Shown here one piece after another: positions 41,794 to 60,861 of a stretch of DNA of 64,000 nucleotides. The notes beneath the pieces were generated by a model. The model made no database searches and was not told the DNA's origin. It saw nothing but the letters and a program-made list of their open reading frames with translations. The position numbers and the translations under genes are program-made. Origin of the DNA: Asticcacaulis sp. SL142 (GTDB lineage: Bacteria > Pseudomonadota > Alphaproteobacteria > Caulobacterales > Caulobacteraceae); assembly GCF_026625745.1 (NCBI RefSeq), contig NZ_CP113061.1, positions 1,513,501 to 1,577,500 on the forward strand, read 5' to 3'. Each line of letters starts with the position of its first letter. The first letter of the stretch is position 1.

Positions 41794-41824
41794 CATGGCC
41801 AGATCTCGTGCCTCGATTCTGGGC

Positions 41825-41910
41825 AAAAAAAAGCCGGACACGAATGTCCGGCTAAAGTCTACAGGGAGGAAACGCCCAGGAAGGGCAATCAGCGTCGAAA
41901 CGCTGAACAC
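41825..41910 (-). ncRNA. Candidate small regulatory RNA, about 86 nt
   Basis: The minus strand between opgH and the catalase gene has every part of a small RNA gene. The predicted start lies 5-7 bases after a sigma-70 -10 element (41915-41920). The RNA folds as: hairpin 1 at 41890-41905, stem CAGCGT/ACGCTG with a UUCG loop; hairpin 2 at 41874-41886, GCCC/GGGC; a single-stranded part at 41854-41873 containing UUUCCUCCC (anti-Shine-Dalgarno); and a terminator hairpin at 41832-41853 with a nine-pair stem and UUCG loop, followed by eight U. Alphaproteobacterial sRNAs with exposed C-rich anti-Shine-Dalgarno segments are known (GsrN of Caulobacter, the CCUCCUCCC-type RNAs). Identity with any of them is not shown. 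It reads away from the catalase gene start. Confidence 0.72.
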
Positions 41911-41914
41911 CTTT

Positions 41915-41943
41915 ACAATATGCTGCGACGCACAAAGTTGCAA
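41915..41943 (-). promoter_or_regulatory. Sigma-70 promoter of the candidate sRNA
   Basis: On the minus strand TTGCAA (41943-41938), a 17-base spacer and TATTGT (41920-41915): near-consensus hexamers at optimal spacing, directly before the hairpin-rich RNA segment. Confidence 0.62.
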
Positions 41944-60094: not shown

Positions 60095-60260
60095 CATCCT
60101 TTAGGGGAGTAACCGCGCGGTTTTAATCGCGGATAACGTCAACATACTTGCCGGGTATCGGCATGGCGTTATCAGTCTGTGGCCACACAGTCGAGGTGAG
60201 ACCTAACGATCCGCTGACGGCCAGATGTGATTGGCCGCCGTCAGAAGATCGTTATGTCTT
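60095..60260 (+). promoter_or_regulatory. yybP-ykoY manganese riboswitch
   Basis: The leader of the TMEM165-family gene has the conserved parts of the yybP-ykoY aptamer: TTTAGGGGAGTAACC at 60100-60114 and GAGGTGAGACCTAACG at 60193-60208, separated by stem-forming sequence (CATGGCGTTATC near 60162-60173). An inverted repeat with CTGACGGC and GCCGTCAG arms (about 60214-60243) follows and may be the expression platform. This riboswitch class senses manganese and is often found before manganese exporters of this very family, which supports both calls. Confidence 0.82.
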
Positions 60261-60293
60261 ATGACCGGCCGGTCACGATTGCGAACCTAACCT

Positions 60294-60861
60294 ATGGATG
60301 CCTTCCTCCACTCCACCACCCTCGTCGCCCTCAGCGAAATTGGTGACAAGACGCAATTGCTGGCGCTGATTCTGGCCGCGCGGTATCAAAAACCCGCGCC
60401 GATTATCTTTGGTATTTTTGTAGCCACCCTGATCAACCATGCCTTTGCGGCCTGGGTCGGCACGTTCGTGGGTGGTCTGGGCATAGACGCCTATATGCCG
60501 TGGCTGGTCGCCATTGCCTTTATCGGTCTGGGTTTATGGATTCTGGTGCCCGATAAAATCGAAGAGGGCGAAGGTGAAATCAAAAAAAGACTACGGCCCG
60601 TTTGTCACCACCACCATTATGTTCTTTCTGGCCGAAATGGGCGACAAGACCCAGATCGCGACCGTGGCCTTGGGCGCTCAGTATGACAGCCTGATCGCCG
60701 TAGTTTTGGGGACGACCTTGGGCATGATGCTGGCCAATGTGCCCGCGGTATTCTTTGGCGATAAGGTGCTGAAGGTCGTGCCGATGCAGTATATCCGCTG
60801 GGCCGCATCCGTGATGTTTGTCGGCTTTGGGGTGTGGCAGATCATTAATTTGCTCAAATAG
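60294..60861 (+). pseudogene. TMEM165/GDT1-family (UPF0016) manganese exporter, interrupted by a one-base insertion
   Basis: The first frame gives the first half of the transporter with the metal-binding motif SEIGDKTQLLALILA; the second frame gives the second half with AEMGDKTQIATVALGAQYDS. Members consist of two such three-helix halves with E-x-G-D-K-T motifs and export Mn2+ (and Ca2+). The frames join if one A is removed from the seven-A run at 60582-60588 (EIKKDYGPFVTTTIMFFLAE), giving the normal 188 residues. As read, the protein would stop after the first half plus 36 unrelated residues. A homopolymer error is likely. It is headed by a manganese riboswitch. Confidence 0.88.

Follow-up and report, generated by a model that had tools for sequence, protein, structure and literature searches.

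The window analyzed here, a stretch of 64,000 bases from Asticcacaulis sp. SL142, carries on its minus strand a small RNA gene (41825..41908, about 84 nt, its 5′ end deduced from the position of the −10 box) which, judging by its sequence, is almost certainly a member of the alpha-R8/MmgR/SisA family (Rfam RF00519). We consider it probable, from the arrangement of conserved elements described below, that this locus encodes a second, Hfq-type alpha-R8 sRNA of the genome, controlled by PhaR and acting with its anti-Shine-Dalgarno segment on several mRNA targets. The comparison of related sequences demonstrates the family membership, a conserved seed, hairpins that keep their pairing, and a PhaR-type dyad placed between the −35 and −10 elements. 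The covariance search against Rfam that the earlier note had suggested returned an RF00519 (suhB/MmgR) match at 41818-41893 on the minus strand, which scores 63.7 bits (gathering score 41; E 8.7e-11 for the window) and covers positions 1-77 of the 77 positions of the model. That note had called the RNA unlisted; a discrete small RNA is indeed encoded here, but it is not unlisted, because Rfam already holds the family. The window RNA adds a new member to a family already described, a real and mostly ordinary find, and we have corrected the description to RF00519. In the surrounding 451 bases, 10 other Rfam models reached an E-value of 1 or less, SorX and SorY included, all of them below their gathering scores.

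According to PMC12559287, the family comprises MmgR of Sinorhizobium meliloti and SisA, SisB, SisC, and SisD of Caulobacter crescentus, and its hallmark is a weak hairpin followed by 5′-UUUCCUCCCU-3′ and a Rho-independent terminator. All the parts that had been proposed for the window RNA (promoter, two hairpins, exposed segment, and terminator) were located on the minus strand in that order. By sequence and fold, hairpin 1 (41889..41906) reads UCAGCGU-UUCG-ACGCUGA and hairpin 2 (41874..41886) reads GCCC-UUCCU-GGGC. They are followed by the anti-Shine-Dalgarno seed UUUCCUCCCU (41863..41872), the 10-mer described for the family in that same source and the segment singled out earlier as UUUCCUCCC, and by a Rho-independent terminator (41825..41853) made of a UUCG-looped 9-pair stem (41853-41832) and a T run, with one of the 8 U in the tail taking part in the closing pair of the stem. 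The UUCG loops noticed earlier are present in hairpin 1 and in the terminator of this copy, but relatives do not generally have them. The 86 nt between 41823 and 41908 fold with a free energy of −35.4 kcal/mol (z −6.3), none of 200 shuffles being equally stable, and in the MFE fold the 10-mer lies unpaired downstream of a weak hairpin, which bears out the proposal of an RNA of about 86 nt with a single-stranded anti-Shine-Dalgarno segment.

To follow these elements in relatives we fetched all 78 above-cut-off loci of the genus and 54 loci chosen from 20 further Caulobacteraceae genera among the matches listed. Of the 133 fetched loci, sub-threshold L004 included, 131 have the 10-mer unaltered, an identity that partly follows from the method since most seeds were located by their first nine letters; the two exceptions, L118 and L181, have a final C instead of T. 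These first nine letters were found near the RF00519 match in 79 of 79 genus rows. Hairpin 1 is off by one base between subgroups in the MAFFT alignment and was therefore judged by the stems of individual sequences: a stem of at least 6 pairs forms in 103 of 115 unique regions, as compared with 27% of shuffles, and its sequence takes 52 forms, a few belonging to a non-homologous hairpin. The other two stems were examined in alignment A1, built from 49 of the 67 non-redundant sequences; the other 18 are mostly oddly spaced or without a clear hairpin 1, so that the counts favor well-formed members. In these 49 sequences, every one of the nine consensus pairs of the terminator is preserved through one or more double changes, while the four G-C pairs of hairpin 2 are invariant and hence uninformative on covariation. 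The RNAalifold consensus of A1 contains hairpin 2 and the terminator only. Compensatory changes were to be looked for in all three stems; they are found in the terminator, and hairpin 1 stays paired through its changes. The conservation expected within Caulobacterales was observed here for Caulobacteraceae, in the seed, in the retained stems, and in the distribution of the family, for RF00519 exceeded its cut-off in all 25 Asticcacaulis genomes searched (that of SL142 included) and in 115 of the 119 sampled Caulobacteraceae genomes (16 belong to Asticcacaulis).

Nine genomes of the genus (G001, G004, G006, G007, G013, G015, G016, G018, and G021) hold four or five above-cut-off copies. The SL142 genome holds two, L001 (71.4 bits), which adjoins an FGase gene (PF05013), and the window copy, which is located between opgH and katE and has no FGase neighbor. 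The FGase gene is reported as the usual neighbor of the alpha-R8 family, and three of the four Caulobacter copies sit away from it (PMC12559287). As the fetched flank gave no FGase match for 54 of the 78 genus copies either, this neighbor does not define the family; it is usual in single-copy species and no requirement for paralogues. A second copy with an identical seed is also what one would see if the window gene were an unexpressed or dead duplicate of the FGase-linked one, yet the window copy is intact from its promoter boxes and dyad to its seed and terminator, and these parts are conserved beside opgH in other genomes (G014, G005, G020, and G008), and we find such a duplicate very improbable. 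Sub-threshold matches L003 and L005-L007 were not taken as members. At L004 (1500-1576), directly after a gene that by eye is GST-like, there is a third RF00519-like element of 30.4 bits, below the threshold, with the exact 10-mer and without the PhaR dyad; its fold is weaker than that of the window sRNA (z −2.1, 5 of 200 shuffles equally stable). At L039 (1500-1700), UUUCCUCCCU stands at one end of an apparent inverted repeat, long and imperfect as judged by eye, rather than in an sRNA.

The genes on either side of the window copy are both on the plus strand. Convergent with it is a glucosyltransferase gene (PF13632; 39761..41749), OpgH-like and which we take to be OpgH/MdoH, and divergent from it is the gene of a KatE-type long catalase (PF00199, PF06628, and PF18011; 42142..44235), which we place outside the system. 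Caulobacter GsrN has a C-rich loop and targets catalase mRNA, and it had been invoked as a precedent for this kind of RNA. The window sRNA differs in belonging to RF00519. A GsrN-like RNA acting on the adjacent catalase would suit the gene order and the C-rich segment, and at L149 (1-365), in one other genus, an RF00519 match comes after the 3′ end of a KatE-like gene, in an arrangement unlike that of the window. Against it, pairing of the seed with the katE start region reaches −13.7 kcal/mol, rank 31 among the 41 window ORFs (taken mechanically, with an ATG start and at least 150 aa), and the order opgH, sRNA, katE is common to only 3 of the 24 other genus genomes (G014, G005, and G020). In G008 the sRNA adjoins opgH and the fetched flank has no catalase match; in the remaining 20 genus genomes, no KatE match was found in the fetched flanks of RF00519 loci. 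On family membership, synteny, and pairing rank we set the GsrN precedent aside as scarcely credible; MmgR/SisA supplies the precedent that fits, and the catalase looks to be a neighbor only, its link to the sRNA incidental as far as the genomes compared suggest. Elsewhere in the window, a yybP-ykoY manganese riboswitch (60098-60274, plus strand; 55.2 bits, gathering score 45) lies directly before the ORF at 60294, by eye presumably a UPF0016-type membrane protein.

The promoter of the sRNA consists of a −35 element TTGCAA (41938..41943) and a −10 element TATTGT (41915..41920), both on the minus strand and separated by 17 bases. Its description as near-consensus was too generous, since we count by eye 8 of the 12 sigma-70 consensus bases and a promoter scan with a threshold of 9 of 12 listed none at the window sRNA; its placement, on the other hand, is conserved. 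Among 100 unique promoters that bear the dyad, 86 have TTG 11 bases upstream of it, the distance seen in the window, and the first T and the A of the −10 element keep their spacing relative to the dyad in 98 and 99 promoters, respectively. The dyad itself, TGCGTCGCA (41924..41932, minus strand), occupies the promoter spacer and resembles a PhaR/AniA operator, with the core YGCRNYGCR reported for the S. meliloti PhaR motif (PMC12542648); the earlier note had overlooked it. We first spotted the shared spacer by eye, and the PhaR motif was sought afterwards. Of the 78 genus loci, 66 have the dyad 50-70 bases upstream of the seed, as do, among the matches listed, 40 of the 54 loci from other genera, where 19 of the 20 sampled genera have it. 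Counted over unique promoters, it is at the same place in 100 of 126, against a mean of 3.8 and a maximum of 8 in 200 rounds of shuffling; these counts are descriptive only, because we fixed the search interval of −70 to −50 relative to the seed once the genus promoters had been viewed, and because related sequences lack independence. The dyad is present at each of the 50 loci where an FGase neighbor was detected, and 26 of the 132 loci (12 of the genus and 14 of other genera) lack it at the usual place. Genome-wide, the pattern TTG-N8-YGCRNYGCA-N3-TA has 3 matches in 3.7 Mb, namely the window promoter, the L001 promoter, and L325, and its reversed version has none; as the pattern was derived from these promoters, the two hits in sRNA promoters were expected and only its rarity elsewhere informs. 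By eye, L325 is located just past the apparent end of an opposite-strand coding frame.

A rival reading is that the RNA is an alpha-R8 sRNA whose promoter PhaR does not control, the dyad serving another regulator or being left over from duplication of the FGase-linked copy. The core is short, with 25 matches in the 64-kb window (rarer than the shuffle mean of 56), so a single match means little and it is position and conservation that carry weight; in addition, S. meliloti mmgR also responds to NtrC (PMC8401924 and PMC7143759), and 7 of the 78 sibling promoters of the genus have other palindromes. Nevertheless, the dyad contains the PhaR core at the position reported for S. meliloti mmgR, in the interval between −35 and −10, and it is retained in copies at different loci as well as in 19 of the 20 other genera sampled. 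In S. meliloti, control of mmgR relies on a dyad between −35 and −10 (PMC8401924); gel shifts show binding of PhaR to the mmgR promoter, and phasin is one of its targets (PMC12542648). In the genus, the YGCRNYGCR core is found at most 260 bases upstream of the phasin gene in 25 of 25 genomes (a raw count), which supports the core as a probable PhaR site in Asticcacaulis. The SL142 genome has phaR (L128; PF07879 and PF05233), phaC, and phasin genes, and the control search for the PhaR family found a match in Caulobacter vibrioides too. The phaR gene adjoins one that by eye is thiolase-like. With both sides considered, we hold a promoter independent of PhaR to be unlikely, though a serious possibility, and we retain PhaR control as the probable arrangement.

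Palindromes of the TAGCGCTA or GACAGCGC type, which we take to be LacI-family-like, are present in 13 RF00519 promoters, 12 of which have no PhaR-type dyad at the usual place, so that 12 of the 26 dyad-less loci carry them. Seven of these promoters belong to the genus (L012, L031, L083, L090, L096, L106, and L118) and the others to one other genus (L130, L131, L136, L143, L162, and L171). Against PhaR control stand these dyad-less loci and the finding of PMC12559287 that the Caulobacter sisA-D promoters have no motif in common; the latter fits a split into promoter classes. In the literature consulted, we found no report of a PhaR dyad at Caulobacteraceae paralogues, although a phylogenetic study of 2016 and a study of the mmgR promoter of 2018 may already have it.

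Candidate targets were sought in the start regions of genes. Searching the genome for the exact complement of the 10-mer gives 4 sites, 3 of which are merely the opposite strand of RF00519-matching loci; exact complements being so few, targets must pair imperfectly. GGGAGGA before an ATG gave 40 pattern matches genome-wide (13 in the reversed control), 30 of which were taken as loci; 26 of these were examined after removing two duplicates from alternative ATGs and two at the third sRNA-like locus. Many of the 26 have unconvincing gene starts, and Pfam gave a name to three. L213, a TonB-dependent receptor gene (PF07715) with AGGGAGGAGUUUUAUG in its start region, and L188, a tryptophan-halogenase-like gene by Pfam, were chosen for the pairing test on account of this GGGAGGA. 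Pairing of the seed with L213, at −24.0 kcal/mol, is the strongest of the four start regions compared (phasin, katE, L213, and L188) and exceeds that of the best window ORF (−22.0). L213 is of the same class as CCNA_03574, a verified SisA target; SisA represses a TonB-dependent receptor mRNA via the 10-mer, which pairs with an mRNA leader and also with CrfA, a sponge RNA (PMC12559287). Phasin was dropped as a conserved direct target, since an AGGGAG block is present in its start region in SL142 but in just 7 of the 25 genus genomes; within that set, L242 is a fragment without the start, and in L230, L233, and L234 a GTG was possibly taken just after the true ATG.

Taken together with the S. 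meliloti precedent, these elements suggest how the circuit could work. PhaR would sit on the dyad in the promoter spacer and block RNA polymerase; when PHB granules form, it would be drawn away and the sRNA would be made. With Hfq, UUUCCUCCCU would then pair with Shine-Dalgarno regions of the AGGGAGG type and block translation of several mRNAs, that of the TonB-dependent receptor being one example, so that uptake and storage would be trimmed when carbon is plentiful. A wider proposition, for which we see even chances, is that most Caulobacteraceae alpha-R8 siblings sense PHB via a PhaR operator while a minority have swapped to LacI-type palindromes, one seed thereby answering different carbon signals. 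What results is a testable wiring in which the PHB sensor PhaR would switch the anti-Shine-Dalgarno RNAs of the SisA type in Caulobacteraceae; if true, it would join the MmgR-PhaR circuit of S. meliloti to the SisA-CrfA feast/famine circuit of Caulobacter.

Finally, the window sRNA can be set beside the systems it resembles. With SorX (RF02784) and SorY (RF02651) it shares the CCUCCCUGU segment and the shape of the terminator; membership in either was rejected, at 35.1 bits against a gathering score of 46.6 for SorX and 29.2 against 111 for SorY. SisA-D of C. crescentus, as described in PMC12559287, likewise have the 10-mer seed, a weak hairpin upstream of it, a terminator, and several paralogues per genome. 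The window copy differs from them in its location between opgH and katE and in its PhaR-type dyad, sisA-D having no common motif in that account. With MmgR of S. meliloti (PMC12542648, PMC8401924, and PMC7143759) it shares the family, the seed, and the PhaR/AniA dyad between −35 and −10. MmgR is, however, the sole copy in S. meliloti, whereas SL142 has two above the cut-off, and Asticcacaulis has not conserved the pairing with the phasin leader.
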